A model generated the notes under the pieces. The model ran no database searches and was not told the origin of the DNA. It saw only the letters and a program-made list of their open reading frames with translations. The position numbers were made by a program, and so were the translations under genes. Shown here one piece after another: positions 14,436 to 29,677 of a stretch of DNA of 46,501 bases. Position 1 is the first letter of the stretch. Every line of letters starts with the position of its first letter. The DNA comes from an uncultured Elusimicrobium sp. (GTDB taxonomy: Bacteria > Elusimicrobiota > Elusimicrobia > Elusimicrobiales > Elusimicrobiaceae). Where the stretch lies: positions 1 through 46,501 of the forward strand of contig CAMZDW010000005.1 of assembly GCA_947305555.1 (NCBI GenBank), read 5' to 3'.

Positions 14436-15920
14436 TTATTTCATGAGTTCTTCCAATCTACGTAGACCGATGTCCACATCACTGTTTCCCGGATCTAATT
14501 TCTTAGCAGTCATCCACGCAGAACGCGCCCGTTCATAATCATCTTGGTTAAACGCATCCAAACCTTCAATATATTTGGCACGTGAAGCCTCTCTCGCTTC
14601 AGCAGACACCCGTTTCATGGCGTCCCCTCCTACGGAAGGTAAAGTTTCATTAGGATCTAACGGATTGATAAGCGTTGTAGTACTTGTTCCCCCTGCTGAA
14701 GATCCCGGGATATTTACCATTCCAGGGATGTTATCCGTTACCTCTACTGTTTCAATCTGCTCAGGCTGCTCTTCTGGACCAGCTCCCGGTGTATTTCCTG
14801 AGACTTGAGCGGCTGCTTGGGCTTGGGCTTGTGCTTCAGCAGCTTGTTGCTGTTGTAAGTACGCCTCTTTCGCACGTTGAATTTGTTCTTGGCGCTGTTT
14901 TTGTGCGGTACGAACATAATTTTCTTTGGCAGTACGTGCCCGTTTGATTAGGCCGTCCATCGTGGTTGTGTCAGCGCCCCATTTCTTTGCATTATTCCAA
15001 TACGAAATGGCTTGATCAAACCGAGCAGCATTATAAGAATTCGCCCCTGCATTATAGTACCCCGCCGCAATTTCATTTTTAAGTTGCGACATATACTTTT
15101 CAACCCGAGCATCACCCGGTTGAATTTTGGTAATACGTTCAAATACCGCATAGGATTCTACGTATTGTCCCTTGTTATAAAAATCCAAAGCCTGTTTCAT
15201 GGATTCTTCCACTTGTTTTCTGCGCAGCAAACTCTCGGCTTCTGCAATTTTAGAAACCAGCTTAGGATCCTCTTTGCGCATCAAAAGCGAATTATACCAG
15301 GCATCTAATGCTCCTTGATAATCCCCTTTTTCATAGGCCACTTCTCCACGCCGGGCATATTCTTTTGCAATATCAGAATCAATTTTTGCTTTCCAAGCCT
15401 GTGCTTTGGAGTTACCCGGTTGAATAGTTAAAATTTCATTTAATTTATCGTTGGCTTCCACTAAACGGCCGCTGTCATACAAGTTAAGAGTTTCCTGGAA
15501 TTTGGCCTCAATAACTTGAGCTTCCGAAGTAGTCCCATAAGTTCCCATATGTTGGGCCTGTTTCGCCAACGTTTGCGCTTGGGTAAAATTCGGATCAATA
15601 CTCAGAATGGTTTGAGCCATCTCCTGCGCCCGTTGGTAATCCCCCATCTTATAAAGCTGATAGGCGTTCTCATACACCATTCGTAATGTATAATTTTGAA
15701 TGCGCTGTTTTTCTAATTGAACGGTGGATAAGTATTGTTTCTTTTCTTCCACATCATTCAAAGTTCCTAACGAAATTTTCCCTAGATCCAACAACATCCC
15801 TTCCTCTTTGCCATGTTGACGGACGGGAATTTCTTTACGAAAGGTAGCCGCCTGTTGTGCTGCAACAGCCGGTAAAACAGTTGCCCAAAGGACGACTCCC
15901 AAAACTAGTTGTTTTTTCAT
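14436..15920 (-). CDS. Exported TPR protein of the Tad locus
   Basis: A 494-residue protein with a signal peptide (MKKQLVLGVVLWATVLPAVAAQQ). About five or six tetratricopeptide repeats cover residues ~60-330, seen as NAYQLYKMGDYQRAQEMAQTIL, ETLNLYDSGRLVEANDKLNEIL, EVAYEKGDYQGALDAWYNSLL, QALDFYNKGQYVESYAVFERI and AGANSYNAARFDQAISYWNNA. A Gln/Ala-rich helix, a Pro/Gly/Thr linker and a final TPR (EGLDAFNQDDYERARSAWMTA) follow. Periplasmic TPR proteins (TadD-like) support secretin or pilus assembly in Tad systems; this one is much longer than typical TadD. GAGGG precedes the ATG. It follows TadC, as accessory TPR genes often do. Confidence 0.85.
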   Translation of the reverse strand: MKKQLVLGVVLWATVLPAVAAQQAATFRKEIPVRQHGKEEGMLLDLGKISLGTLNDVEEKKQYLSTVQLEKQRIQNYTLRMVYENAYQLYKMGDYQRAQEMAQTILSIDPNFTQAQTLAKQAQHMGTYGTTSEAQVIEAKFQETLNLYDSGRLVEANDKLNEILTIQPGNSKAQAWKAKIDSDIAKEYARRGEVAYEKGDYQGALDAWYNSLLMRKEDPKLVSKIAEAESLLRRKQVEESMKQALDFYNKGQYVESYAVFERITKIQPGDARVEKYMSQLKNEIAAGYYNAGANSYNAARFDQAISYWNNAKKWGADTTTMDGLIKRARTAKENYVRTAQKQRQEQIQRAKEAYLQQQQAAEAQAQAQAAAQVSGNTPGAGPEEQPEQIETVEVTDNIPGMVNIPGSSAGGTSTTTLINPLDPNETLPSVGGDAMKRVSAEAREASRAKYIEGLDAFNQDDYERARSAWMTAKKLDPGNSDVDIGLRRLEELMK

Positions 15921-15932
15921 ACAATATACCCT

Positions 15933-16820
15933 CTAAAAGCCCAGGCCGCCTTGAAGAAGGCCCATAATCATAGGGGCTAAAATTAAAATAAAAACGGTTG
16001 GCAAAATAAATATAAACATTGGGAACAGCATCTTTGTAGATGCTTGCGCAGCCAATTTTTCTGCCCGGCTCAAACGTCTAGAACGCAAATCCGTAGAGAA
16101 ATTGCGCAATAAATCCACTAAGCTGGTTCCTAACTCATCGGACTGAATAATAAGACCAACCAGAGAACGCACTTCCTGCACGCCCGTACGCGCGGCGAAA
16201 TGTTCCAAAGCATCGCGACGAGAATAACCCAGTTTAATCTCATTAATCGTCTTTTCCAATTCTTCTTCCAAAATTGTTTTTTCTTTTGCAATTTTAATAA
16301 TACGCTCAAATGCCGTTAAATAATCCAAACCGGATTCAATAATTAACGCAGCCAAATCTACCGTGGTTGAGAAGTTACCCAAAATTTCCGCCTGACGTTT
16401 TTGAATTTTGCTTTTGAAAAATACATCCGGCACGTAAAAACACAGCGGTACTAAAACGACGGGCCACAAAGCTTGAAACAGTAACATCATACCGGCCGGA
16501 ATTGCCAAAGCAGCAATAATTTTCGTGTACAGTATATCCACCGGCTGAGGATTATCTGGGCTTCCCAACTGCATGTGCATTTCTTCCAAGCTTGATTCTA
16601 ATTTAAATGTACGCAGGCAGAACACAGCCACTCGGTCCATAAACTTCTCTTCCGGCTTTAAACGCGAAAAGCTGGACGTGGATTTAAACTGCTGCACTGA
16701 AATATCCATCAGGCTTTCTTTCTTTTCCTTAGGTGCCAATAAATTCAGCACTACGGCAAAAGTAGCAAATGCCCCAATGGCTAACAATACATTCAAGCCC
16801 ATTTCTAAAAAGGAACTCAT
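15933..16820 (-). CDS. tadC: TadC-type inner-membrane platform protein
   Basis: A 295-residue GspF-family (T2SSF) protein. Hydrophobic segments lie at about residues 7-27, two near 105-135, and one near the C-terminus (LFPMFIFILPTVFILILAPM). Between them is the cytoplasmic helical T2SSF domain (LAALIIESGLDYLTAFERIIKIAKE, ELEKTINEIKLGYSRRDALEHFAARTGV, QSDELGTSLVDLLRNFS). TadC pairs with TadB to form the platform that couples ATPase turnover to pilin extrusion. It lies two bases after the TadB gene and 12 before the TPR gene. Length and layout are normal for TadC. Confidence 0.9.
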   Translation of the reverse strand: MSSFLEMGLNVLLAIGAFATFAVVLNLLAPKEKKESLMDISVQQFKSTSSFSRLKPEEKFMDRVAVFCLRTFKLESSLEEMHMQLGSPDNPQPVDILYTKIIAALAIPAGMMLLFQALWPVVLVPLCFYVPDVFFKSKIQKRQAEILGNFSTTVDLAALIIESGLDYLTAFERIIKIAKEKTILEEELEKTINEIKLGYSRRDALEHFAARTGVQEVRSLVGLIIQSDELGTSLVDLLRNFSTDLRSRRLSRAEKLAAQASTKMLFPMFIFILPTVFILILAPMIMGLLQGGLGF

Positions 16821-16822
16821 AA

Positions 16823-18451
16823 TTACACTCGCACCTCACCCATTTTCCGTAATACAGCCAACCCGATGCCAATCCATATTACGCAGAACAAAAATACAAC
16901 GATCCCTACGAAACTGGTATAGAAGGAAATCATTTGTTCTGGATTGAATACGAACAAAACCATCATAATTAAAAACGGCATGACACTGACAACGATAGAC
17001 TGAATTTTTTGCTGGGCCGTCATTGCCTGCAATTTTTCTTCCAGCTTACTCTCTTCACGAATATTTTCCACCAAACGTGAGAAAATAACCGTCAAATTAC
17101 CACCGACCTGCCGTTGAATAATAATCGCTTTAATAATGTACGAAAGCATACGGCTTTCGACACGGTCTGTCATGCCATCCAGTGCTTTTTCAAAAGGAGT
17201 ACCCAATTGGTAGTTCTTAACTACCAAGCCAAATTCATCTGAAATAGGCGGCAACAAGTCCCGGGAAACCATTTCAAACCCCTGTACAATATCCATCCCA
17301 GAACGTAGCGAGTTAGAAAGTAAAATCAAAGCATCCATGAGCTGCGCATTTACCTTTTCCCCGCGGCTCCTTTTCAAGGTTTCCAATACTTTCATGGGCA
17401 TACGAACACTCACTACGCCCCCTAAGAACAGCACAAGTAAAAATACAAAAACTCCGCTAAAGCCACCCATCATCAAGCCAAATACAAGCCCCAAAGCAGC
17501 AAATACCGCGATCGTCCCCATCACAATATACTTAACATCAATCGTTACAAATTGCCGGTTAAAATCTTCTGCCCAAGCAGTACTTTTAACTCGGTATTCT
17601 TCCATAAATTGTAAAATACTGTCCCGTTTATTTTCTAGCAGTAAATAAACAGCGAACCCAGCCAAAGAGGAACCAATCAAAATAAGTAAGAGGGTCAGTG
17701 ATCGGTCTGCCCGAGTCGTGGTATAAATTTTTGGATCTGGAGGATACACGGGGATAGGCTCTTTCATCAAAAATTCACGGAACAAATAGTTAGAAAGCAC
17801 CACTACTGCCGTGACCGATTGGCGATATTTATTTTCGCGCTGTGAAATCGGGCTGGAAAAAGACTCTATCGTACTGAAAATTTCGCTGTTAATCATTTCC
17901 ATCGTGGACAACATTGCCCGACCGCGGCCACCCAGAGAATCCTTCATAATGATCATTTCTTTCCCACGCAACAAATCTTTATTCAAACGGTCAATGGCTA
18001 ACGTAAGAGAAATACGTCTACGCATAAACTCACGTGATAATTGGCTTAACACAATTGGTTGGTTGGGGTCTAACGACTTTTCTGCCGTATCCAGGTAATA
18101 ATAAATATTAGCAAAAGCTTGACGCCACAAATCCGCCTCGCTGTAGGTTCCTTCATCCTTTACGTATATGATTTTATTTTTATCTAATCGAGGCAATTCC
18201 TCTTTAAACCATTCCGGAACCTTAATGGTAACCTCTTTTCCGCCCCCGCATTGTTCCGGCAACTTGGCCGCTTTTTCTTCTGATATTTTTTTCACATCAA
18301 AAAACTCAGCTAAAATACGCATCTTTTCTTTGGCACATTGAATACGAATGCGGTCATCCGCGGTTAACGAACGCGCCCCTGCCGGGACAGAAACCCCTAA
18401 CAAGGTAAAGATGAACAAAACAACAAACAAAGTGCGTATCTTAAGTATCAT
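16823..18451 (-). CDS. tadB: TadB-type platform protein with a large extra N-terminal domain
   Basis: A 542-residue protein. The C-terminal ~300 residues are a TadB/GspF domain with paired membrane helices (IVMGTIAVFAALGLVFGLMMGGFSGVFVFLLVLFLGGVV) and the T2SSF helices (LILLSNSLRSGMDIVQGFEMVSRD, LGTPFEKALDGMTDRVES, QRQVGGNLTVIFSRLVENI), ending in two further helices. Ordinary TadB is about 300 residues; here ~240 residues precede it, with a signal-like hydrophobic start (LFVVLFIFTLLGVSVPAGARS), a likely periplasmic domain and a helix near 250-270. This extra domain could contact CpaB or the secretin. Orthology to TadB is inferred from the domain and from the order ATPase-TadB-TadC. Confidence 0.88.
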   Translation of the reverse strand: MILKIRTLFVVLFIFTLLGVSVPAGARSLTADDRIRIQCAKEKMRILAEFFDVKKISEEKAAKLPEQCGGGKEVTIKVPEWFKEELPRLDKNKIIYVKDEGTYSEADLWRQAFANIYYYLDTAEKSLDPNQPIVLSQLSREFMRRRISLTLAIDRLNKDLLRGKEMIIMKDSLGGRGRAMLSTMEMINSEIFSTIESFSSPISQRENKYRQSVTAVVVLSNYLFREFLMKEPIPVYPPDPKIYTTTRADRSLTLLLILIGSSLAGFAVYLLLENKRDSILQFMEEYRVKSTAWAEDFNRQFVTIDVKYIVMGTIAVFAALGLVFGLMMGGFSGVFVFLLVLFLGGVVSVRMPMKVLETLKRSRGEKVNAQLMDALILLSNSLRSGMDIVQGFEMVSRDLLPPISDEFGLVVKNYQLGTPFEKALDGMTDRVESRMLSYIIKAIIIQRQVGGNLTVIFSRLVENIREESKLEEKLQAMTAQQKIQSIVVSVMPFLIMMVLFVFNPEQMISFYTSFVGIVVFLFCVIWIGIGLAVLRKMGEVRV

Positions 18452-18465
18452 AAAATCTCTTTTGC

Positions 18466-20808
18466 CTAAGCAGCAGGTGCTGCCGGTGGGGCCGGAGGCA
18501 CATCTGATGCTGTTGAGGCTGCTGAACCCGATTTTTGATGTTGCAATTCTTTTACTGCAGCTAAATCCGGCTCTCCATTCTCATCTAAGGGAACAGCCCC
18601 TTTCGTAAATACATTTTCATCCACCGGCTGCCCTTTGGCTGCAAATTCATCATAGAAAGTCGGCAAATTGCCCGTAGGCGCAAAGACGCCTTGTACTTTC
18701 CCGTTTTCATCTACTCCGGTCTGCACGTAGCGGAACAAATCCGTAGATTGAATTTGCCCATCCTTTTGCCCGTGCATCTCCGTAATATAAGTTACTTTAC
18801 GGGAACCATCCGAAAAACGCGAAAGCTGTACGATCATGTTTACAGCCGAAGAAATCATTTCCCGGATAGCAAAAATTGGTAAATCAGCCCCAGTCTGCAT
18901 GCACATTGCTTCCAAACGAGACAGTCCATCACGTGGGGTATTGGCGTGAATCGTTGTCAAAGACCCTTCGTGACCAGTGTTCATAGCCTGTAACATGTCG
19001 AGTGCTTCTCCACCACGACACTCCCCGACTACAATTCGGTCCGGACGCATACGCAAACAGTTCTTTACTAAATCTTGAATGGTAATGGCCCCCTTTCCTT
19101 CTACGTTTGGCGGACGGCTTTCCAGCGACACCCAGTGCGGTTGTTGCAAACGAAGTTCCGCGGTATCTTCCACCGTAATGATACGTTCATCATCCGCAAT
19201 ATAACCGGAAATAGCATTTAAGAAGGTTGTTTTACCGGTACCGGTACCACCGCAAACGATAATGTTTTTGCGGATTTTAACACATTTCTTAATAAATTCC
19301 ATACATTCCGGGCTAATTGTACCAAACCGGTAATAATCTTCCGGCCCGAACGGTTTTGAAGAGAAACGACGAATCGTCAACGTTGGCCCCGAAACCGCCA
19401 ACGGTGCAATAATAGCGTTTACACGGGAACCATCTTTCAAACGAGCGTCCACCAGCGGTACTGATTCGTCAATACGACGACCCAAGGGCGCCACAATACG
19501 TTTAATTACTTGTACCACTTGTTCGTTATTTCTAAATTTGTATTTAGTGAGAGTCAACTTACCTTTTTGTTCGATAAAAATCTTATCAAAGGCGTTGACC
19601 ATAATTTCGGTAACGGCCGGGTCGCGCATTAATACTTCCAGTGGCCCCAAGCCCAAAATTTCATCTAACAATTCGGAGGTAAACCGAGTTCTCTGATCAC
19701 GTGAAAATTGCAAGTTGGGCTGCTTTTGTAGAATATCATCTACAATCGCCGCTACCCGCTTACGTGTTTGCGCACTGGCAGTGCTTTCATCACTGATAAC
19801 AATGTGTTCAATTTCCAGGGCGTGTACCACTTCTTTATGAATTTTTTGTTTCAAATCGTCCCAGAAAGACATTTTTGTCTTTCCACGTTCGTCTTCCCCT
19901 TCCACAGCTACGTGATCCGTGCCGCCTCCGCTTCCTTTTCCATCATCAAATAAAATAGGCGACCAAATATCTTTTGCGGCTTGCGTAAACTCTTCATCCG
20001 ATACAGAAGCTTGCCAATCTTTGGGAGCCGGTTTTAAATCGCGGATTTTAGCAAGTACCAACCGCAATCCTTTGACCCACTCCGATTGAGGATTGGTAAT
20101 AATTTCCACTTCTCGACGGTTAGATGTGGCCATGACATCTTCATCCCAAGGGAGGAAAACATCTACTTCACGCTCCAACTCAGAATAAAAGCGCTCCATT
20201 TCTTCGTAGGGAATAGACCCAGGCATATCATAACCGTTACAAATGACGCTCACGCGGTCCATTGGATAACGTTGTGCTTTATAATCGTTAAAAAGTTGTA
20301 CGGTGGAATTAATATGCGTACGGGTTGCATTGGATACCCAGAAAATTTTGTCCGCAATATCAAAAGCAAACGCCTGCATTGGGAAACTAGAATCCACATC
20401 TAAGAAAATATCAAATGTCTGAGATAAACGAGATAAAATCGGAATTAAAATCTTAGGACTAATCGCCGCCACTTGAGCCCGGTTATTTCCTAAAGGCAGC
20501 AAACCTACGCCCCATTGCGACATGGAAATTTTTCCACGTAGCAATCCCCCCACCACGGCAATAGAAGTGTTACCCAATACTTGCAACAAATCCGCCACAC
20601 TAACGGGTTTTTGAATATCTAAATAAAAACTATGTTCTTGACGAGCCAAAGGATCTAACGGAACAATGAGCACCGGCCTTTTTTGAATACCGGCCCAGCC
20701 CAACGCCAAATTTAATACAAGCGTAGTTTTACCGGCTCCTTCCTTAGGACCAGTAAAAGCAATAATCTTTGCATTACTCTTTTGTTCTTCGTTATTTTCT
20801 TCAGCCAT
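18466..20808 (-). CDS. CpaE-CpaF (TadZ-TadA) fusion: MinD-like ATPase joined to secretion ATPase
   Basis: A 780-residue fusion. Residues 13-260 form a MinD/ParA-like domain with deviant Walker A GPKEGAGKTT (signature Lys22, Lys27), equivalent to CpaE/TadZ, which places Tad machines in the cell. A Gly/Asp-rich linker at about 283-312 follows. Residues 313-735 form a complete CpaF/TadA ATPase: N-terminal helical domain (DEILGLGPLEVLMRD), Walker A GGTGTGKTTFL at 520-530, the Asp box (TVEDTAELRL), Walker B region (RPDRIVVGECRGGEALDML) and the His box (GHEGSLTTIHAN). The tail is Ala/Pro-rich. In characterised Tad loci these are separate genes. Met313 (ATG at 19870-19872) has GGAAAG six bases upstream, so a free CpaF might also be made. 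It sits directly between secretin and TadB. Confidence 0.93.
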   Translation of the reverse strand: MAEENNEEQKSNAKIIAFTGPKEGAGKTTLVLNLALGWAGIQKRPVLIVPLDPLARQEHSFYLDIQKPVSVADLLQVLGNTSIAVVGGLLRGKISMSQWGVGLLPLGNNRAQVAAISPKILIPILSRLSQTFDIFLDVDSSFPMQAFAFDIADKIFWVSNATRTHINSTVQLFNDYKAQRYPMDRVSVICNGYDMPGSIPYEEMERFYSELEREVDVFLPWDEDVMATSNRREVEIITNPQSEWVKGLRLVLAKIRDLKPAPKDWQASVSDEEFTQAAKDIWSPILFDDGKGSGGGTDHVAVEGEDERGKTKMSFWDDLKQKIHKEVVHALEIEHIVISDESTASAQTRKRVAAIVDDILQKQPNLQFSRDQRTRFTSELLDEILGLGPLEVLMRDPAVTEIMVNAFDKIFIEQKGKLTLTKYKFRNNEQVVQVIKRIVAPLGRRIDESVPLVDARLKDGSRVNAIIAPLAVSGPTLTIRRFSSKPFGPEDYYRFGTISPECMEFIKKCVKIRKNIIVCGGTGTGKTTFLNAISGYIADDERIITVEDTAELRLQQPHWVSLESRPPNVEGKGAITIQDLVKNCLRMRPDRIVVGECRGGEALDMLQAMNTGHEGSLTTIHANTPRDGLSRLEAMCMQTGADLPIFAIREMISSAVNMIVQLSRFSDGSRKVTYITEMHGQKDGQIQSTDLFRYVQTGVDENGKVQGVFAPTGNLPTFYDEFAAKGQPVDENVFTKGAVPLDENGEPDLAAVKELQHQKSGSAASTASDVPPAPPAAPAA

Positions 20809-20812
20809 ATAG

Positions 20813-21556
20813 TTACTCTACTACTTCAACCGTGATGAATAAGAACAGCGAACGTTGTTCCTCAGTGACATCCTTTGTTTTAAAGAATAAGCCAATGAGA
20901 GGCAAACGTCCTAAGAAAGGCACCCGGTCTTCCGCTACGTTACGTGAGCTGCTTTTGAGTCCACCAATGACTAAGGTTTCCCCACTGTTGAGTTCCACGT
21001 GTGTTTCTACTTCGCGGTTTGTGAACGAGGGAGCTGCTGCTGTACCAATAACAACCGTTCTGGAATAGTCTACAGATGAAACAGAAAGTTGTATTTGTAA
21101 ATCAATAATATTGTTACGTTCCGGAACAATCGTCGGAAGCACGCTTAATAAAATACCGTAATCTTCCAACTGAGAACCAATCCCTTGGTTGTTTACTACC
21201 GGGATCGGCACTTTTCCACCCACCGTAATCTTGGCTGCATTGCCCGACGAAGTGACAATCTTCGGGTTAGACAAAACTTGTGCCCGACCTTCTGTTTCCA
21301 TCAAACGCAAACGAGTTGCAACCGCGGTTTTACGTTCAAATTCACCTAAGGATAAAATCCCTGGAATGGAGGCTTCTTCAAAATCGAACATCGGGTTCCA
21401 CGAAAAACCCTTTACACTTTGCGATGTTCCACTAATTTCAACAACATCCGCACTCACGGCCACCAGACGCGTTTTCTTCGCCTGTGCCACGCTGGGGAAC
21501 AATATAATGCCCAGCAAAATTGTCAAAGATAGGTTAGTGATAAATTTTATCTTCAT
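20813..21556 (-). CDS. Minimal secretin (CpaC/RcpA-type barrel domain only)
   Basis: A 247-residue protein with a signal peptide (LSLTILLGIILFPSVAQA) followed almost at once by the secretin homology domain: ATRLRLMETEGRAQVLSNPKIVTSSGNAAKI, VGGKVPIPVV, LSVLPTIVPERNNIIDLQIQLSVSS, GETLVIGGLKSS and the signature VPFLGRLPLIGLFFKTK. CpaC/RcpA proteins are usually 400-500 residues with N-terminal ring (N0/BON-like) domains; these are missing. The outer-membrane pore part is complete, so it could still form a gate, with the ring function supplied by CpaB or the TPR protein. Four bases separate it from the ATPase gene. It could also be one half of a split secretin, but no other half is seen here. Confidence 0.88.
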   Translation of the reverse strand: MKIKFITNLSLTILLGIILFPSVAQAKKTRLVAVSADVVEISGTSQSVKGFSWNPMFDFEEASIPGILSLGEFERKTAVATRLRLMETEGRAQVLSNPKIVTSSGNAAKITVGGKVPIPVVNNQGIGSQLEDYGILLSVLPTIVPERNNIIDLQIQLSVSSVDYSRTVVIGTAAAPSFTNREVETHVELNSGETLVIGGLKSSSRNVAEDRVPFLGRLPLIGLFFKTKDVTEEQRSLFLFITVEVVE

Positions 21557-21567
21557 AGTTATCCTGT

Positions 21568-22116
21568 TTACTCACGAAATAATTTCTCCAAAGAAGCAAT
21601 TTCCATTACATCAGTTTCTTCATCCCCTGGCTGACGTAACACAAGATCTAGTTTTCCTTGTGTCAGGGCCACAGACAGGTATTGAGAATCTTTGGGTGAA
21701 AGGGCTAAAACGACGTAAGCATTTCCACCAACAGGACCCGTCAAACCTGCTCGTTGGGGCTGTTCTAAACCAACATCTAATACTTTAATATTCTGTAACA
21801 GTGTAACCGTTACATTTTCCTTCCTGCCATTTTTTAATTGAGCTTCAAAAGTCATTAAAACATCTACCTGATCATCCGCATCTATTGTTTGTGCAAATGC
21901 ATTAGGCAGACCCGGTATAATAAAGCCTCGCGATTGCAAAGGAACTTTTTCCGCCACCTTTTTCTTTTGCTTCGGAGCGTTCTCCTGCGAAAAAGAACTA
22001 GGCCGAGCCGTCTTCGGGCGATGAGACTTGGCAGACAAGAACGAAAATCCTGCCCAAATCATCACTCCCGCAATAACTAATAAAATCAATAAACTCAATA
22101 AACTCTTGTTCTTCAT
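21568..22116 (-). CDS. CpaB-like protein lacking the SAF domain
   Basis: A 182-residue protein with one N-terminal membrane helix (about residues 7-29), a Lys/Pro/Ser-rich linker and a RcpC/CpaB C-terminal domain: DADDQVDVLMTFEAQLKNGRKENVTVTLLQNIKVLDVG, then LALSPKDSQYLSVALTQGKLDLVLRQPGDE. It aligns with residues ~125-250 of the complete CpaB encoded just upstream (DDNVDVLLTFEANMRNGTREKVSITLLQNIKVLGVG), so it is a duplicate that has lost or replaced the SAF domain. It is not a broken fragment: it keeps its own membrane anchor, and the frame is intact. It probably forms a mixed CpaB assembly linking the platform to the secretin. Confidence 0.85.
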   Translation of the reverse strand: MKNKSLLSLLILLVIAGVMIWAGFSFLSAKSHRPKTARPSSFSQENAPKQKKKVAEKVPLQSRGFIIPGLPNAFAQTIDADDQVDVLMTFEAQLKNGRKENVTVTLLQNIKVLDVGLEQPQRAGLTGPVGGNAYVVLALSPKDSQYLSVALTQGKLDLVLRQPGDEETDVMEIASLEKLFRE

Positions 22117-22136
22117 ATCTCTAAATTAGCTCTATC

Positions 22137-22892
22137 TTACGACTGGAATAATCTACCAAACGTAGTTACGTCCGTAATGTGGGTCGTAACGTCCCCATGA
22201 GAGCGTAAAATAACGGAAATTACCCCTTCTTCCTGAGCAAGTGCCAAGTATTGTGCATCCTGTGGAGAAAGAGCCAAAGACAACGCCGAACTATCCGAGA
22301 AAGCAGCTTCTTCCTCTTCCTTGTTCTTCATAGCATTGGCAGTTTTCAAATCAATGCCTTGTCCTAAATTGGAACCAACCCCCAACACTTTAATATTCTG
22401 CAATAAAGTAATTGACACCTTTTCACGAGTTCCGTTCCGCATGTTCGCTTCAAAGGTTAACAGCACGTCCACATTGTCATCCGGCTTAATCATGTTGGCC
22501 GTCGACAAAGGAACACTGATGATGTAACCACGCATCTGCACCGGAATTTTACTCGAAAGCCCTGCTTCTGGAGATAACGAAGTAATCGCATACTTGGAAA
22601 TTTGGTTTCCTTTCGGGATTTGAATACGGGCCACTGCATTTTCAATAGCTTTAAAATCCGCATCAGTCGTATACGTGAATGCATCTTTTTGCAAGTACGC
22701 AGCGGGTACGGGCACCGGGCGAATAAGATCACGCTTAATTACTTCACGTTCTTTAATATCGCGAATAGGTACGAATACCTGCTTGATGCTCTTAGACGCA
22801 GTTAACTTTTTTTCCGCGCTACTAACAATCAATGCATAAACAATGGCTGCTAAAATAGCTACCACCAGTGGTAAGAAAATCCCTTTTTTCAT
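22137..22892 (-). CDS. cpaB: CpaB/RcpC pilus-assembly protein
   Basis: A 251-residue protein with an N-terminal membrane helix (about residues 5-24), a SAF domain (about 38-105, VFVPIRDIKEREVIKRDLIRPVPVPAAYL, RIQIPKGNQISKYAI) and the RcpC domain (about 110-245, DNVDVLLTFEANMRNG, LSLALSPQDAQYLALAQEEGVISVILRS). CpaB spans from the inner membrane to the secretin in Tad systems; the SAF domain is thought to touch peptidoglycan or pilin. GAGGAG precedes the ATG. Gene order Flp-TadE-CpaB-CpaB2-secretin-CpaEF fits a Tad locus. Confidence 0.92.
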   Translation of the reverse strand: MKKGIFLPLVVAILAAIVYALIVSSAEKKLTASKSIKQVFVPIRDIKEREVIKRDLIRPVPVPAAYLQKDAFTYTTDADFKAIENAVARIQIPKGNQISKYAITSLSPEAGLSSKIPVQMRGYIISVPLSTANMIKPDDNVDVLLTFEANMRNGTREKVSITLLQNIKVLGVGSNLGQGIDLKTANAMKNKEEEEAAFSDSSALSLALSPQDAQYLALAQEEGVISVILRSHGDVTTHITDVTTFGRLFQS

Positions 22893-22932: not shown

Positions 22933-23418
22933 CTATTTTATATCACTACTCAAATATGCTTTTTGAATCGGCATACGAGTAACCGCTTGTACACGCCGAA
23001 TTCCTTCTTTACGTGGTTCGCTGGCAAGTAGCCAACTGGTTCCCGGAAATGACAAATGTACCGGGTACGTAACTGTAACAACAACATCTTCATGACGGTG
23101 TCTTTGATACATGGGATCCGTTCCAGTAGTTTCCACTTTCACCGTAACACCTATTCTTCCTGCATTGGTCCCAAACACCTTCTGCTTGGCCTGATTAATT
23201 TTTTGTATCATACGGGTCCGGTCAGGCCGGCCGCTGGGTTTTGTAACGGCCACTAATGCGCCGATACGGGCAAATTCATAAGAAGCGTGGTTTGCAATAA
23301 TCGTGTGGTAAGCGATATTTCCATATTCAAGTACAAAGAAAATAAGTAACATGAATATGGGCAATATCAACATCAACTCCGCTACTACCTGCCCCCCACG
23401 CTTCTTACAAAATTGCAT
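22933..23418 (-). CDS. TadE-like minor pseudopilin
   Basis: A 161-residue protein beginning MQFCKKRGGQVVAELMLILPIFMLLIFFVLEYGNIAYH: the TadE signature, with predicted cleavage at G|Q and Glu at +5. The remaining ~120 residues are a soluble domain with a basic middle. I chose the ATG at 23418, four bases after the stop of the Flp pilin; a GTG 13 codons earlier overlaps the pilin gene and is less likely. It follows the main pilin and precedes CpaB, the usual Tad neighbourhood. It is a paralog in type, though not closely in sequence, of the TadE at 6322-6873. Confidence 0.85.
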   Translation of the reverse strand: MQFCKKRGGQVVAELMLILPIFMLLIFFVLEYGNIAYHTIIANHASYEFARIGALVAVTKPSGRPDRTRMIQKINQAKQKVFGTNAGRIGVTVKVETTGTDPMYQRHRHEDVVVTVTYPVHLSFPGTSWLLASEPRKEGIRRVQAVTRMPIQKAYLSSDIK

Positions 23419-23422
23419 AGAA

Positions 23423-23659
23423 TTAATAATCACCGCCACCGGTTTGGCCGATACCACCTAAGATTTTGCCTTTCATGCTATCAAACAAGTCCGGCATCAT
23501 CTTCTTAAGAGCGAAGCCAGCCGCCAAGGCAACACCCACTACTACACCTAACATAAGCAGGTATTCCACGGTGTTCTGACCTTCTTTTTTCTTAAGGCAG
23601 TTCACAGCTTGTGCCTGTAAGAGGTCCATTTTGTTTTGCAACGCAACGATATATTTCAT
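23423..23659 (-). CDS. Flp-type pilin (probable main subunit)
   Basis: A 78-residue prepilin: a 27-residue basic leader ending KKKEG, then QNTVEYLLMLGVVVGVALAAGFAL with Glu-Tyr at +5/+6 after cleavage, and a short Gly-rich tail ending in GGGDY. These are the marks of Flp pilins, small helical subunits of Tad pili. GGAGGAAGG lies just before the ATG, the strongest ribosome-binding site in the operon, which fits a highly made structural subunit. It is followed by TadE and CpaB. No prepilin peptidase is in the window, so maturation relies on an enzyme encoded elsewhere. Confidence 0.9.
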   Translation of the reverse strand: MKYIVALQNKMDLLQAQAVNCLKKKEGQNTVEYLLMLGVVVGVALAAGFALKKMMPDLFDSMKGKILGGIGQTGGGDY

Positions 23660-23684: not shown

Positions 23685-23864
23685 CTAACTAACATCATAT
23701 TCCATCAAAATAATTTTAGCCCCTTGATCAAACTGTTTGGGTACTAAATGTGAATATAACACATAAAAGGAAATAATCGCCGCAAAAAGCCCGGCCGCAA
23801 TCACAATATATTCTACGGTCGTTTGGCCTTTTCTACTTTTGAGCGAAACTCCCTTTTTTTCCAT
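23685..23864 (-). CDS. Second Flp-like pilin (59 aa)
   Basis: A 59-codon gene found by translating the gap between the PorV and Flp genes. It starts at ATG 23864, three bases past the PorV stop, and ends TAG at 23685. The product starts MEKKGVSLKSRKG and continues QTTVEYIVIAAGLFAAIISF, which has the same cleavage site and Glu-Tyr pattern as the two other Flp-like pilins in the window. A short tail ends in MEYDVS. It may be a minor pilin that starts or caps the fibre, as tandem Flp paralogs do in other Tad loci. The signature and the tight packing make a chance reading frame unlikely. Confidence 0.85.
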   Translation of the reverse strand: MEKKGVSLKSRKGQTTVEYIVIAAGLFAAIISFYVLYSHLVPKQFDQGAKIILMEYDVS

Positions 23865-23867
23865 ATG

Positions 23868-24854
23868 CTAGAATTGGACCGACAACGCTATCTGTTGTGA
23901 CGTGCCCAATGCTCCAAACGGGGTTACCGCGTAATCCAGCGATGCGCCGTACCCGAATAATTCCGAACTATACAAACCAAATCCAAAAGAGACCCGGGAA
24001 GTTTCTTCCAACCCGATTTTCTCTACCCAAGAATCTTCCGTATTTTCCCCTGTATTGGTGCGGGTATAATACCCAACACGCAGGTCAAACCGGGCCACTT
24101 GCAACAAATCTTCCGGAATATGAATAGCCAACCCAACGCCATAACGGGCATTGTCATCACGATACTTCATGTATTCGCCGGAAACGGTGAAGTAACGCGT
24201 ATTTAAATCGGCCCCTAAACGAAGCCCTTGCGGCATATCTTCTTTATCCCCGATATTGACAAGTGCACCGCCCAAACCAAGCCAATTAACTAAACGTAAT
24301 TTAGCGCCTACATCAAAACCTACGTTATTATAGTGGTTATAACCGGAACCCGTGTAAAGGCGTTCGCTAATGTACTTAGCCGTACCGCCAATTTGGAGTT
24401 TTTGGTCAATAAACCCTCTGGCGATGGACAAGCCCCCCACAAAGTTGCGAACCGGAGTGCCGACTTCCGGCATTTTTTGAGCCCATTCGTCACGGAAGTC
24501 GAAGTTGTCCATGTCCATATAATTTAAAGACACCCCGATAATGGTTTTCCCAATCGGTTGCAAGTACGCCAACGTGCGGGACTTATAGCCCTGTAAATAG
24601 TCCTGGTACGTAAACGCAATCTCGCGCGTGGTGGCGGAACCGGCCCCGGCCGGGTTCCAGAACAAAGCTTCCGGCCCGTCGGCAATAGACACATACGCAT
24701 TACCGAGCGCTTGCGCAGTTGGAGCGCCGGCATCAATTTTTAGGAACGCACCGGCACTGGTACCGGCGTTTTCGTTAATTCCTTTTGCATCGGCAGCCAC
24801 CGCTCCCAACGCAACACTCAAACAAACCATTAAAACTTTCATTTTTATGTTCAT
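23868..24854 (-). CDS. PorV/PorQ-type outer-membrane beta-barrel protein
   Basis: A 328-residue protein with a signal peptide (MKVLMVCLSVALGAVAADA) and the PorV/UPF0164-like N-terminal motif FLKIDAGAPTAQALGNAYVSIADGPEALFWNPAGAG, followed by alternating hydrophobic strands and a terminal aromatic strand ending in QIALSVQF, typical of FadL-like barrels. In type IX secretion PorV shuttles C-terminally signalled cargo. No other core type IX genes (PorK, PorL, PorM, PorN, Sov) are in the window. It lies between the 1560-residue FlgD-Ig protein, a possible client, and the pilin genes. A start at Met5 is also possible; neither start has a clear ribosome-binding site. Confidence 0.85.
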   Translation of the reverse strand: MNIKMKVLMVCLSVALGAVAADAKGINENAGTSAGAFLKIDAGAPTAQALGNAYVSIADGPEALFWNPAGAGSATTREIAFTYQDYLQGYKSRTLAYLQPIGKTIIGVSLNYMDMDNFDFRDEWAQKMPEVGTPVRNFVGGLSIARGFIDQKLQIGGTAKYISERLYTGSGYNHYNNVGFDVGAKLRLVNWLGLGGALVNIGDKEDMPQGLRLGADLNTRYFTVSGEYMKYRDDNARYGVGLAIHIPEDLLQVARFDLRVGYYTRTNTGENTEDSWVEKIGLEETSRVSFGFGLYSSELFGYGASLDYAVTPFGALGTSQQIALSVQF

Positions 24855-24962
24855 AAATCGTTACAAGGCTTTCCTTCCTGTCAGGAAACTCTCCTTATTG
24901 TATAACTTCTTTCTGCCGGACAGCAAGCCCGGGACCTTCGATACTACAAGACGAACTTCTCT

Positions 24963-24985
24963 CCGGGGGAGGTTTTCTCCCCCGG
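24963..24985 (-). terminator. GC-rich hairpin after the FlgD-Ig gene
   Basis: CCGGGGGAG pairs with CTCCCCCGG around a five-base loop, ten bases past the stop of the 1560-residue gene. No uridine run follows in the transcribed direction, so it may block 3' decay or reduce read-through into the PorV gene rather than stop transcription fully. It resembles the hairpin at 1464-1488. Confidence 0.5.
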
Positions 24986-24994
24986 AAAAATCTA

Positions 24995-27900
24995 CTACGG
25001 CACCAACACCTTGACTACTTTTTGGCAATGTTCGCGGCCATTTTTCGCTTTGAAATCTACAAGGCCGAAGTACACGCCACGGGCTACTTTTTTACCGTGT
25101 TGGTTAGTACGATCCCAGCGGCAGCGCAAGGCTGCGTTACGTTGAGACGGGAACAGATTCAAGTCTGCCTGCGTCATCTTCGTAGATCCGACTGGGTCGT
25201 TATCCGGGTTAAAGCTTAAGCTGCTACCCATCGTGGTTTGATAGTTATTGGCATCCACACAGGTATACCCACTATCGCGCACCAGGTCGCCTGCCAAGTT
25301 GAAGAACTTGATAGATACTTCACCCGGCACCGGCATCTTGGTAATTTCCAACGTACCGCGGTCGGCATTCTTTAACGGGTTGGGGTAGAAGAACACGGTT
25401 TTCTCCCAATCCGCGCAGACAAACCGTCCGTCGCCGATAGCAATGGTGGCTTTGTGCAAGTTTTGATACTCGTACGTATCGGCCACATAATTAATCTTGT
25501 TATCGGTGTTTCCGCTATCATTACCCGGAATAATTTCCCCGGTTACAGAATCGATATCGGCCGAGTTCAAGGCCGTTACGAAGCGGAACGGATAAGTTCC
25601 ATCAGGTACTTCCTGACCGGCATAGTCGGTTCCGTCCCACAATTCTTCAATTAAGGTTGTAGCCGGGCGGATACCCACAATGGATTTCACGAGTACATCG
25701 CGAATATTGGTCACTTCTGCACCCGTGGTGGGGTTACGCAAAGTACCTTTGGAGTAATCGTAAATGGTCGTTCCGGGTTTGAAAATCTGGATAGCGACTT
25801 TCATCGGCACGGACACCTGGTATCCAATACGCATATCAGTTCCGCGCACAGCGATAGAATAGCCATCAGCTTCCAAGAGGTCAAACACTTTTAAGAGGTC
25901 GGCGTTGAGCGTAATGCTCTTAACGGTAGCCTCATACAAATCCGGATTCGGATAGTTACGCGCCGTCAAGCGTACTTCGTAAATACCCGGTTTAACGTAA
26001 AAGCCGTTGTTGTCGGTTCCATCCCAGTAGATTTTGCGAATGACATTCGCATCAAAATTACTGGTATTGGCAATCGTCATCGTGGAGAGATACTTACACA
26101 CATCTCCGGCTTTATTGTCTCTCAAATCCGCATGAACTTCAGGATCGGGTGTACAAACTCCGGCTTGCAGCGCCACGATGGCTACTTCTACGATTGCAGC
26201 ACGGCTGACAGCGAAGTTAACCTCATAGGGCGGCACAAAGATTGGGCCGGAGGACACGTTAAACAGCTGCGGTGCATTGGGATAAACCACCGTAGAACCA
26301 TCCAAGAAATACACAGCGCCGCGGGTTACGTTGATTTTGCTAACGGGTTTTTCCGTAGCGTACCAGTAACTTTGCTGTTTAACTTCGCTTGCTTTCTTAA
26401 ACGGTTGTCCGGTTAAGGAGTAGTCGGTGTCGGTGTCGCTATCCTGGTTTGCATCATAGTAGTAGCGGCTAAAGGGCTCGTTCGATTTAGCCACAACAAA
26501 GAATGGATACTGCCCATCCGGCACCATTTCATACGGACAATCCGTTTTTTTGTTGTTGGGGCTGGTGCAGTTGGTCGGGTTGTTAAAGTACAAGGCATCC
26601 CATTCTTCCATGATGGTCAGGCCGTCTCCCGGCTTAGCAGCGCTGGAATCGACGGTTTCAATCGGTTGCAAGCGCACATTAATATTCGTAGCATCGTAGG
26701 ACGTCTTCGAGCTTGGATAGCTTGTAAAGCTGGTATCGTTTACGTAGATACACGCATGTTCAGCCGTCACTTTGCTCGGATCTACATGACCGTCAGTGGT
26801 GAAAATGGCATGATCCGTTGACTTATCGCAGATACGCGGCGGCCATACATCTGCCTTCCCGGTATCGCCTAATGAAACGGTAGCGGTTATCGTATACGGA
26901 TTTGCACCTGCAACTTTCCATGTAATTGTATACTTGGTACCGCCAATGGTCTGCTCTTCCGTTTTTGTTGATCCTGCAGTGAGCGTATTTTTATTGGTAA
27001 TTTCCACGTTCGTATTGGTACCGGGCAACGTGACCATCATCTTCACATCACCGGCAGTTAAAGCATTTGCCTTCGTAGTAGCCGTGGTTGAAGCACTCAC
27101 GACTCCGGAAAGCGTGTTGTAATCCGGGATGACTACATCCTTATTATAGATGTTAATCTGCACGTTCATGGATTTAGACAACTTATAAGAAATGGTGGCA
27201 CGCGCATTACTGTCTCCATACACATCCGTGGTGCTCAAATCTACCACGCGGTACAGATCCACCGGGAACACCGCTGCAGCGCGGCTGGTTACAGCCGGGA
27301 ACATGGCATCTTTCGTTTCTACCACAAACATATAGGTAGCCGGAGCAACCATGCGCCCTGCGTCATCACGTCCATCCCAAGAGATAGTGTTCATCTGTTG
27401 GGATACTTGTGTGATCCCTTCCATCGGCGTTAAGTGTTTCACCACCACACCGGCCGTATTTTCCACTTTAGCTACTACGTTAGCGTCACGCGCAATAGAA
27501 TATTTGAAAATGAACGGATCCAACCCATACGCGGTGGGGCTGGAACCTACCGTGGCATAACTAACCGGCTGGATGGTGATATCCACCGTCCCGCGGTCCA
27601 CCGATATTTCCCCGGTTGAATATTTTAAAGTTTTTACACCGGTAAAAGCGCGGTTATTGTAGGAGGTACCATCTTGTTGAGGACACTCGTTATTAGGTTC
27701 AAATGAAGGCTTTCTGTCTTCTGTAGCTCGCGCGTTATAATAACAACCGTTATACGGAATTTCCGCCCATAATACATAGACGTAGTTTCCGTCCGGCATG
27801 GGAGCACCGTAGGCAAATGTTTCTTCACAGCCTGCATTGAGAGCACAAATTTGTCCATTGGGTTGTTTCTCTCCTTTGGCATAGGTGCGGGTACACCCGG

Positions 27901-29677
27901 AAGCAACGCCGCACAAACCGTCCCACTTGCTGGTCCAATTCATACGCCCGGTGCGGTTTTCTACCGCGCTGTATACCAAGGCACCGGTGCCGGACTTAAT
28001 AGTCGGTGCGGTACCCGTCGGTGTTTGGGATTCCGTCAAAATAGCGGCGGTACCTTCATATATCCCGGAGATCTGAGCATTTTCAAACACAGTTCCCGGA
28101 GTGTAAATATTCCAATATACTTTGGCACTTTCGGTAGGCGTGTATTTGATAGAGGCATACGCCGTGGCCTGTTTGTTCAATCCGACTACTTGAATGTCCG
28201 TCAAACGCAGCGGATCTAATGATAACTGGCGCGTTACAGCGCGTGAAAAATCGACACCCGGCCACTCGTCCATTGATTTAGCTTGCAACGATACCAAGTA
28301 GTTACCGGCCGGTAACAACATACCGTCATCATTGCGGCCATCCCAAGAATCAAATTCGCTGATGTTGACGTCTTTTTCTACCCCTTTCATACCTTCGCCA
28401 ACGCGCGGTTGCCAATCCACCAGCGTACGCACAAGCGGCGCAGGATTCAATACGGTAGTATTGGCAGTGGCGTAGGCAGTATTATCCAAAGTAGATGCAT
28501 CAAAAATGGCGATACGCACATCCGCATCTTTACTTAAGCGGTATGAATACGTATACGGCTGGGCCGCCACCGCAGTAATGCTACCTACCACGCTAGGCGT
28601 ACTGCGCACGGTGTGAATGTTCGTCACATCTACTTGTATCGGGATTTGGTTCATCCCGGGGTAAACAATGGTGGAATTAAAACTGATTTTATCTACAACG
28701 ATGCTATCCCCCGGCGCATCCGTGGCTACGGTAGCACGGAAGGCGTAGTTCCCGTTCGTTTTGCCAAACTCCCCGGCGATATCATAGGAACCGTCCCATG
28801 CCGCACAGAAAGGAATGGACTGGTTTGACTTAATTCCATCACCGTTGTACACGACATAGTTACAAACATACCCATTGCCGTCCTTACCATTTTGACACAG
28901 ACATTTTCCCGTTTTGTTCTTTCCCTCAGTGTCAGACAGATCAAAGCAATTGAAAGTATTGTCGCTAGCTGTTTTTACTACATCGTCATCCGTCCAATAC
29001 AGGGCTTGCCCACACGTATTCCCGGAATTCGTACCCCCCGGGCACTTGTATGAAGCACAGCGTGCCTCCTCTTGGTTGGGATACAAATTGATGGTGCGGA
29101 TGGCTACAGCATCATCCGCATTGGCAATATTTTTACCGTTGTAGTATTTGACAACATCAAATTTGATTTCTTGCAACGGGAACGTAATGGAATACGTACT
29201 GCCCCCGTTCGGGCGGTTGTTGCAATACACATTCATACAAAGCGCCAAACAGTGGTTGGGGTAGTTGTTCTTTGCGGGCTTGTCACTGGGATAGGGCTGG
29301 TCGTATTCAATCAAGGCAGAAGCGACCCACGGGTCCTGCACGGAGTCACCCAAGTCCGTATCGCCATCCATCGCGGTCGGCGGGTTTTGCGTTCCTCCCT
29401 GCCCTCTGTACGTAAAACTACGGTTAATAGCACTTTCAGATTCTGGATGATCTTTAAGAAGGTCTATGAATTTTTTATCACCAATTTTTTCTTCGGAAAA
29501 ATCACAATACATGGCATCTACCGAAGTAGGCTGATTTTTATAAAACACACCGGCGTAACGCACTTCGGCTGTTTGGGCAAAGGCCGGCACACTCACAAAC
29601 CCTAATAAGGCCGCCACAACGGCACAGGCGGCTGCTTTAGTTACTATCAAACGAACTAAACTTTTAGTTGTATTCAT
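24995..29677 (-). CDS. Giant secreted protein with repeated FlgD-type Ig-like cassettes
   Basis: A 1560-residue protein with a signal peptide (cleavage after VPAFA, about residue 34). The N-terminal ~330 residues hold a cysteine-rich part (SYKCPGGTNSGNTCGQ, CLCQNGKDGNGYVCNY). From about residue 290 on, at least eight cassettes share the FlgD-Ig core W-D-G-x-(N/D)-D-x-G followed by P-(D/A)-G-x-Y, for example SWDGRNDDGMLLPAGNY (~445), SWDGRDDAGRMVAPATY (~765), YWDGTDNNGFYVKPGIY (~1215) and LWDGTDYAGQEVPDGTY (~1345). The last, near 1520, is WDRTNQHGKKVARGVYFGLVDF, followed by a short basic tail; that end resembles C-terminal Ig-like export or anchoring domains. It heads the locus, before PorV and the pilins, and likely is a surface adhesin or fibre tip. 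No enzyme motif was seen. Confidence 0.88.
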   Translation of the reverse strand: MNTTKSLVRLIVTKAAACAVVAALLGFVSVPAFAQTAEVRYAGVFYKNQPTSVDAMYCDFSEEKIGDKKFIDLLKDHPESESAINRSFTYRGQGGTQNPPTAMDGDTDLGDSVQDPWVASALIEYDQPYPSDKPAKNNYPNHCLALCMNVYCNNRPNGGSTYSITFPLQEIKFDVVKYYNGKNIANADDAVAIRTINLYPNQEEARCASYKCPGGTNSGNTCGQALYWTDDDVVKTASDNTFNCFDLSDTEGKNKTGKCLCQNGKDGNGYVCNYVVYNGDGIKSNQSIPFCAAWDGSYDIAGEFGKTNGNYAFRATVATDAPGDSIVVDKISFNSTIVYPGMNQIPIQVDVTNIHTVRSTPSVVGSITAVAAQPYTYSYRLSKDADVRIAIFDASTLDNTAYATANTTVLNPAPLVRTLVDWQPRVGEGMKGVEKDVNISEFDSWDGRNDDGMLLPAGNYLVSLQAKSMDEWPGVDFSRAVTRQLSLDPLRLTDIQVVGLNKQATAYASIKYTPTESAKVYWNIYTPGTVFENAQISGIYEGTAAILTESQTPTGTAPTIKSGTGALVYSAVENRTGRMNWTSKWDGLCGVASGCTRTYAKGEKQPNGQICALNAGCEETFAYGAPMPDGNYVYVLWAEIPYNGCYYNARATEDRKPSFEPNNECPQQDGTSYNNRAFTGVKTLKYSTGEISVDRGTVDITIQPVSYATVGSSPTAYGLDPFIFKYSIARDANVVAKVENTAGVVVKHLTPMEGITQVSQQMNTISWDGRDDAGRMVAPATYMFVVETKDAMFPAVTSRAAAVFPVDLYRVVDLSTTDVYGDSNARATISYKLSKSMNVQINIYNKDVVIPDYNTLSGVVSASTTATTKANALTAGDVKMMVTLPGTNTNVEITNKNTLTAGSTKTEEQTIGGTKYTITWKVAGANPYTITATVSLGDTGKADVWPPRICDKSTDHAIFTTDGHVDPSKVTAEHACIYVNDTSFTSYPSSKTSYDATNINVRLQPIETVDSSAAKPGDGLTIMEEWDALYFNNPTNCTSPNNKKTDCPYEMVPDGQYPFFVVAKSNEPFSRYYYDANQDSDTDTDYSLTGQPFKKASEVKQQSYWYATEKPVSKINVTRGAVYFLDGSTVVYPNAPQLFNVSSGPIFVPPYEVNFAVSRAAIVEVAIVALQAGVCTPDPEVHADLRDNKAGDVCKYLSTMTIANTSNFDANVIRKIYWDGTDNNGFYVKPGIYEVRLTARNYPNPDLYEATVKSITLNADLLKVFDLLEADGYSIAVRGTDMRIGYQVSVPMKVAIQIFKPGTTIYDYSKGTLRNPTTGAEVTNIRDVLVKSIVGIRPATTLIEELWDGTDYAGQEVPDGTYPFRFVTALNSADIDSVTGEIIPGNDSGNTDNKINYVADTYEYQNLHKATIAIGDGRFVCADWEKTVFFYPNPLKNADRGTLEITKMPVPGEVSIKFFNLAGDLVRDSGYTCVDANNYQTTMGSSLSFNPDNDPVGSTKMTQADLNLFPSQRNAALRCRWDRTNQHGKKVARGVYFGLVDFKAKNGREHCQKVVKVLVP

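Follow-up and report, generated by a model that had tools for sequence, protein, structure and literature searches.

The fused gene and the locus around it

The window, by which we mean the whole stretch of 46,501 nucleotides that was analysed (contig CAMZDW010000005.1 of an uncultured Elusimicrobium sp.), carries on its minus strand a group of genes in which Flp pilin candidates, TadE, CpaB, a secretin, CpaE/F, TadB and TadC all occur together, as recognized by Pfam matches and, for the pilins, by eye (Table 1). The gene of interest here starts four bases from the end of the secretin gene and lies directly upstream of two T2SSF platform genes, as do cpaE-cpaF in named loci of Actinomycetota and Pseudomonadota; judged by the predicted functions of its neighbors, it is part of a Tad pilus operon. 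The two small open reading frames share a Flp-type cleavage-site pattern, which we take to mark both as pilin candidates, and the longer of them extends across the GTG at which the TadE gene starts. Some of the neighbors have features of their own. The secretin consists of a signal-like start and the secretin domain, with no further Pfam domains detected, the TadB-position protein also has a signal-like start, with no significant Pfam match across its long N-terminal region, and two CpaB/RcpC-like genes, one of them short, stand side by side (21568-22892). Beside the operon, at 23868-29677, a PorV-like protein adjoins a protein of 1560 aa that matches FlgD Ig-like and, weakly, CHU_C (type IX signal).

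Table 1. Features of the Tad locus in the window, in order of position
Feature	Coordinates	Strand	Basis
TPR protein, TadD position	14436..15920	-	Pfam
TadC-position platform protein (T2SSF)	15933..16820	-	Pfam
TadB-position platform protein, 542 aa, T2SSF at 375-499	16823..18451	-	Pfam
cpaE-cpaF fusion gene, 780 aa	18466..20808	-	ORF call, Pfam, solved-structure matches
CpaF motor, residues ~318-735	18604..19857	-	T2SSE 386-666, structure matches
Met313 codon (19872-19870) and GGAAAG (19884-19879)	19870..19884	-	Proposed internal start, not conserved
Variable linker, residues 263-312	19873..20022	-	Relatives aligned
CpaE-type MinD-like domain, residues ~1-262	20023..20808	-	CbiA 16-232, profile comparison
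Short secretin, 247 aa, CpaC position	20813..21556	-	Pfam
RcpC/CpaB-like protein, 182 aa	21568..22116	-	Pfam, NCBIfam
CpaB/RcpC, 251 aa	22137..22892	-	Pfam, NCBIfam
TadE-like protein, GTG start	22933..23457	-	Pfam
Flp-type pilin candidate, 78 aa, GQNTVEY	23423..23659	-	By eye
Second Flp-type pilin candidate, 59 aa, GQTTVEY	23685..23864	-	By eye

The gene is a genuine CpaE-CpaF fusion, an uninterrupted open reading frame of 780 codons plus stop in which a CbiA (CobQ/MinD/ParA) match (31.4 bits against a cut-off of 25.4) precedes a T2SSE match. The deviant Walker A motif that had been claimed for the first half is present as GPKEGAGKTT at residues 20-29. By Pfam, NCBIfam and solved structures, the second half is a T2SSE/VirB11-type ATPase closest to CpaF: its residues 318-721, Walker motifs included, match Caulobacter crescentus CpaF (9e24, 8rkd) in phmmer with an E-value of 6e-114, and TIGR03819 is the top NCBIfam match at 329 bits, yet under its cut-off of 373. 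AlphaFold2 gave the whole protein a mean pLDDT of 36 and no usable model of the domain joint.

Relationships of the MinD-like half

Profiles of the N-terminal domain were compared by hhalign with five or six CpaE proteins of named plasmids, with ParA and with other P-loop ATPases of the same phylum. The domains from the window's class matched CpaE with a score of 158 (E 3.3e-22), other P-loop ATPases with 105 (E 7.8e-15) and ParA with 75 (E 2.7e-10), and those from other classes gave 239 against CpaE, 125 against other P-loop ATPases and 110 against ParA. When the CpaE proteins were scored singly, two of six (L162 and L163) fell inside the ParA-like range with the profile of the window's class, and none of six with that of the other classes. 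On these scores CpaE, and not the ParA-type proteins, is the closer relative of the fused domain. A search of the plasmid collection with the N-terminal domain alone found no match at E<=1e-5, and the kinship with CpaE therefore rests on the profile comparison. In family f21 the domain is more remote, with a weak direct match to the profile of the window's class (probability 3%) and a weak one to CpaE (61%); against the profile of the other classes the probability is 98.6% (E 1.4e-15), and with this intermediate profile hmmsearch recovers ten f21 sequences at E-values from 6.8e-14 to 3.5e-4, the best shuffled control reaching 0.26. It is through this other-class profile that the f21 domains are linked.

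CpaE is described, in the accessible text of a recent tomography study, as having a receiver domain and a C-terminal amphipathic helix (PMC13170226). The profile alignment to CpaE begins only at about CpaE residue 144, and the fused domain begins near residue 12 of its own chain, so the receiver-like N-terminal half is missing. The atypical receiver domain of CpaE/TadZ was found neither in the profile comparison nor in the longer upstream frames of four relatives, which read as non-coding. The preliminary description, which had spoken of a complete MinD-like domain joined in frame to a complete CpaF, is borne out as to the single frame and the two intact ATPase domains; the MinD part is not a whole CpaE.

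Distribution among the Elusimicrobiota

A survey of domain architecture had been proposed in the preliminary description, and it finds the fusion to be common across the phylum. Matches at E<=1e-20 were obtained in 276 of 340 phylum genomes, and among the matches listed 144 of 150 rows span from residue 14 or before to residue 699 or beyond (four with one in-frame stop, by hand count), the remaining six being partial. Because full-span matches recur to this extent among those listed, an assembly or sequencing artefact was rejected. In a further set of 65 genomes, picked mainly from other families and counting five whose loci were left out (G246, G289, G290, G308 and G321), 47 have both domains in one frame. 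Elsewhere in this set the domains lie in shifted frames (G203, G212), the N-terminal match is weak (G160 and G163 of family f6), CpaF lacks the N domain (G002), or there are fragments (G161, G177), the MinD part only (G186) or a short unfused protein only (G236); no CpaF-type match was found in G005, G007, G008 and G166. By these counts the same architecture occurs in most sampled Elusimicrobiota and is no oddity of one genome.

Searches of the 1.36 Mb draft genome of the organism itself, about 80% complete, with the N-terminal domain, PF13614 and PF00437 found no free CpaE or CpaF. The N-terminal domain occurs in one place, PF13614 in three (a ParA, a 594-aa frame and the fusion) and PF00437 in four, namely the fusion itself plus three ATPases with alignments to the query of only 30-34%. 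Since the draft is incomplete to this degree, the case against free copies draws on relatives as well. The N-terminal domain matches in 59 of 61 genomes, the organism's own included; within the genus each matching genome has one such place, except for G041, where it is in two pieces on two contigs, and in G061 the open frame has only 337 aa. The extra matches in other genera of the order, with E-values of about 5e-4, are weak. Short CpaF-like paralogues of about 350-440 aa occur in other families, at 12 loci examined (L128:1010-2065, L138, L140-L144, L148-L150, L152 and L156); no CpaE-like frame was detected in their flanks, and L128 also holds a fused copy. In G186 a frame of 1051 residues (L146:2948-6100, minus strand) has tandem CpaE-like MinD domains at 65-309 and 346-596 and no CpaF, followed by a stretch that, read by eye, looks like a Ser/Thr protein kinase (Pfam Pkinase E 0.44, truncated piece).

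The ATP sites of the two halves

Motif residues were compared in 38 sequences, 11 from the window's class, 17 from other classes and 10 from family f21; we take K27 to be the P-loop lysine and D52 the Walker A' aspartate of the MinD domain, and K526, E547 and H621 to be the motif residues of the CpaF motor. The three motor residues are invariant (38/38). K27 is kept in 11/11 sequences of the window's class, 2/17 of other classes and 0/10 of f21, and D52 in 11/11, 3/17 and 0/10, respectively. As both other-class sequences with K27 are without the glycines of the loop, the P-loop of the fused domain is broken in all 27 sampled sequences outside the window's class. Among 52 same-genus proteins the CpaF Walker A is kept throughout and both Walker A lysines in 49, the other three having Arg at the P-loop lysine. 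Mean identity is 30-47% for the N-terminal domains as against 72-75% for the motors. Free plasmid CpaE proteins also lack the P-loop lysine in three of six cases, so fusion as such is not what causes the loss. Within the window's class, ATP binding by the MinD domain probably persists. In the other classes it survives with a broken P-loop, and its nucleotide cycling is therefore probably not essential to the motor there.

Tad loci outside the phylum and the origin of the fusion

The preliminary description had stated that CpaE and CpaF are separate in characterised Tad loci, and this agrees with eight named plasmid loci from outside the Elusimicrobiota: none has an annotated cpaE-cpaF fusion, and six have a separate CpaE-type gene directly before cpaF. 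At least four records of the plasmid collection had a single place that takes in at least 80% of the query, and all four listed proved to be two adjacent annotated genes rather than a fusion. On two actinobacterial plasmids cpaE and cpaF overlap by a few bases. Given that the two genes adjoin or overlap on plasmids, fusion of neighbors would be the simple route to the present gene. In a CpaF tree built without 7 of the 60 rows, which were long or distant, 38 fused rows lie on one side of a branch and six unfused plasmid rows on the other, with support of 86/52; when the short paralogues are counted, the starred branches force at least three label changes. The tree is compatible with a single origin of the fusion, and the branch support is not decisive.

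Known CpaF proteins have been divided, in the accessible part of a 2025 survey of 292 sequences from all major phyla, into classes I-III with a bare N-terminus, a disordered region or an FHA domain (PMC12019362); the fusion differs from each as described there in carrying a CpaE-type MinD domain in that position. The FHA-CpaF of class III likewise has a regulatory domain ahead of CpaF, an FHA domain and not a MinD ATPase. A 576-aa plasmid CpaF of Moraxella bovis (L170) is probably an FHA-CpaF as well, its extension having been read by eye. With CpaE/TadZ the fusion shares the MinD-like domain with deviant Walker A, to which it is closest by profile and which is likewise encoded directly upstream of the CpaF part; it differs in having no receiver-like half and in being covalently one to one with CpaF instead of a separate protein. 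Tad systems have been reported in Elusimicrobia in a 2019 survey (PMC6668835) and a Tad region in Endomicrobium and Elusimicrobium in 2022 (PMC8809381), as far as the accessible parts of both papers go. No description of a CpaE-CpaF fusion was found in the titles and abstracts of the open-licence papers searched, and the gene represents an architecture of this known motor that is conserved and apparently undescribed.

Alternative readings of the gene

It had been suggested that Met313, at the domain joint, is an internal start from which free CpaF is made alongside the fusion, giving mixed hexamers with few MinD-type localisation domains. The ATG and, ending six bases upstream, the GGAAAG are both present as described, and true starts in the window often have such a signal (14 of 34 ORFs by a strict SD-like motif). 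As a ribosome site, however, the motif does not exceed background: in 34 hand-picked minus-strand ORFs of the window, one of the motifs GGAG, GAGG, AGGA and GGAA stands 4-11 bases before 33 of 298 internal in-frame ATGs. Nor is the codon conserved. In 52 distinct full-length ORFs of the genus, assigned by search or near identity (from 85 matching loci, of which 78 were full length, after duplicates were dropped), codon 313 is CTT in 20, CTG in 14, ATG in 10, TTG in 4, CTA in 2 and CTC in 2, thus CTN in 38; an ATG with GGAA 8 bases upstream occurs in two of the 52, and no other ATG between codons 240 and 359 is common to five or more of them. The SFWDDLKQ that follows the joint is conserved while residue 313 switches between Met and Leu, an alternation that fits protein constraint rather than a start signal, and the joint residue varies among ten relatives belonging to other families of the class. 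Met313 was rejected as a conserved start device; that no product arises from it is strongly favoured, and by its codons this is not a two-product gene. We give mixed hexamers formed in this way hardly any credence, and the idea of few localisation domains is weakened also because the fused part is without the receiver-like half of CpaE.

Post-translational cutting of the fusion in its flexible linker, which varies from 49 to 70 residues within the window's class, might also yield separate CpaE-like and CpaF parts; the linker shrinks to 18-23 residues in ten f21 sequences and the alignments, read by eye, showed no conserved cleavage motif, and we regard such cutting as very improbable. Somewhat less so, and still unlikely, is that an ordinary CpaF motor carries the MinD domain as a passenger, either vestigial or purely structural. 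The broken P-loops outside the window's class, the much faster divergence of the N-terminal domains than of the motors and the loss of the receiver-like half would all suit a passenger; against it stand the intact lysine and aspartate throughout the window's class, the retention of both Walker A lysines in nearly all of the genus, and the fact that the domain is kept and not deleted in the 47 further genomes noted above.

A probable single-chain Tad motor

We consider it likely that the product of the gene is a single-chain Tad motor, the MinD-like half of CpaE being tethered to the N-terminus of CpaF on every subunit of the hexamer. The MinD-like ATPase half would be covalently joined to the motor in one chain, and the chains would form a CpaF hexamer with exactly six MinD domains, as three dimers or six monomers, at the motor's N-terminal end. 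There, and without the receiver-like half, they may provide the coupling to platform or membrane for which free CpaE serves elsewhere.

In Caulobacter, as presented in the accessible text of the 2026 tomography study, CpaE was fitted around CpaF, with an AlphaFold3-predicted CpaE-CpaF contact cited, and the model has six CpaE dimers per CpaF hexamer (12:6), the REC domains being proposed as dimer joiners (PMC13170226). The fusion is a direct test of that model, as set out in this text, because its ratio is fixed at one to one and the REC half is missing. More tentatively, as something just short of probable, we propose a fourth CpaF architecture, a hexamer obligately bearing six CpaE-derived MinD domains in which the receiver half is lost and, in most other classes, the ATP site as well. 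If this is true, direct CpaE-CpaF contact would be basic to Tad machines, the working ratio could be 6:6 as opposed to the 12:6 of the Caulobacter model, and nucleotide cycling of CpaE would be dispensable for some Tad motors. The fusion may also serve structural work as a natural one-to-one CpaE-CpaF complex, ready-made and stable, and the loss of the P-loop in other classes would amount to a natural experiment on the need of CpaE for ATP.
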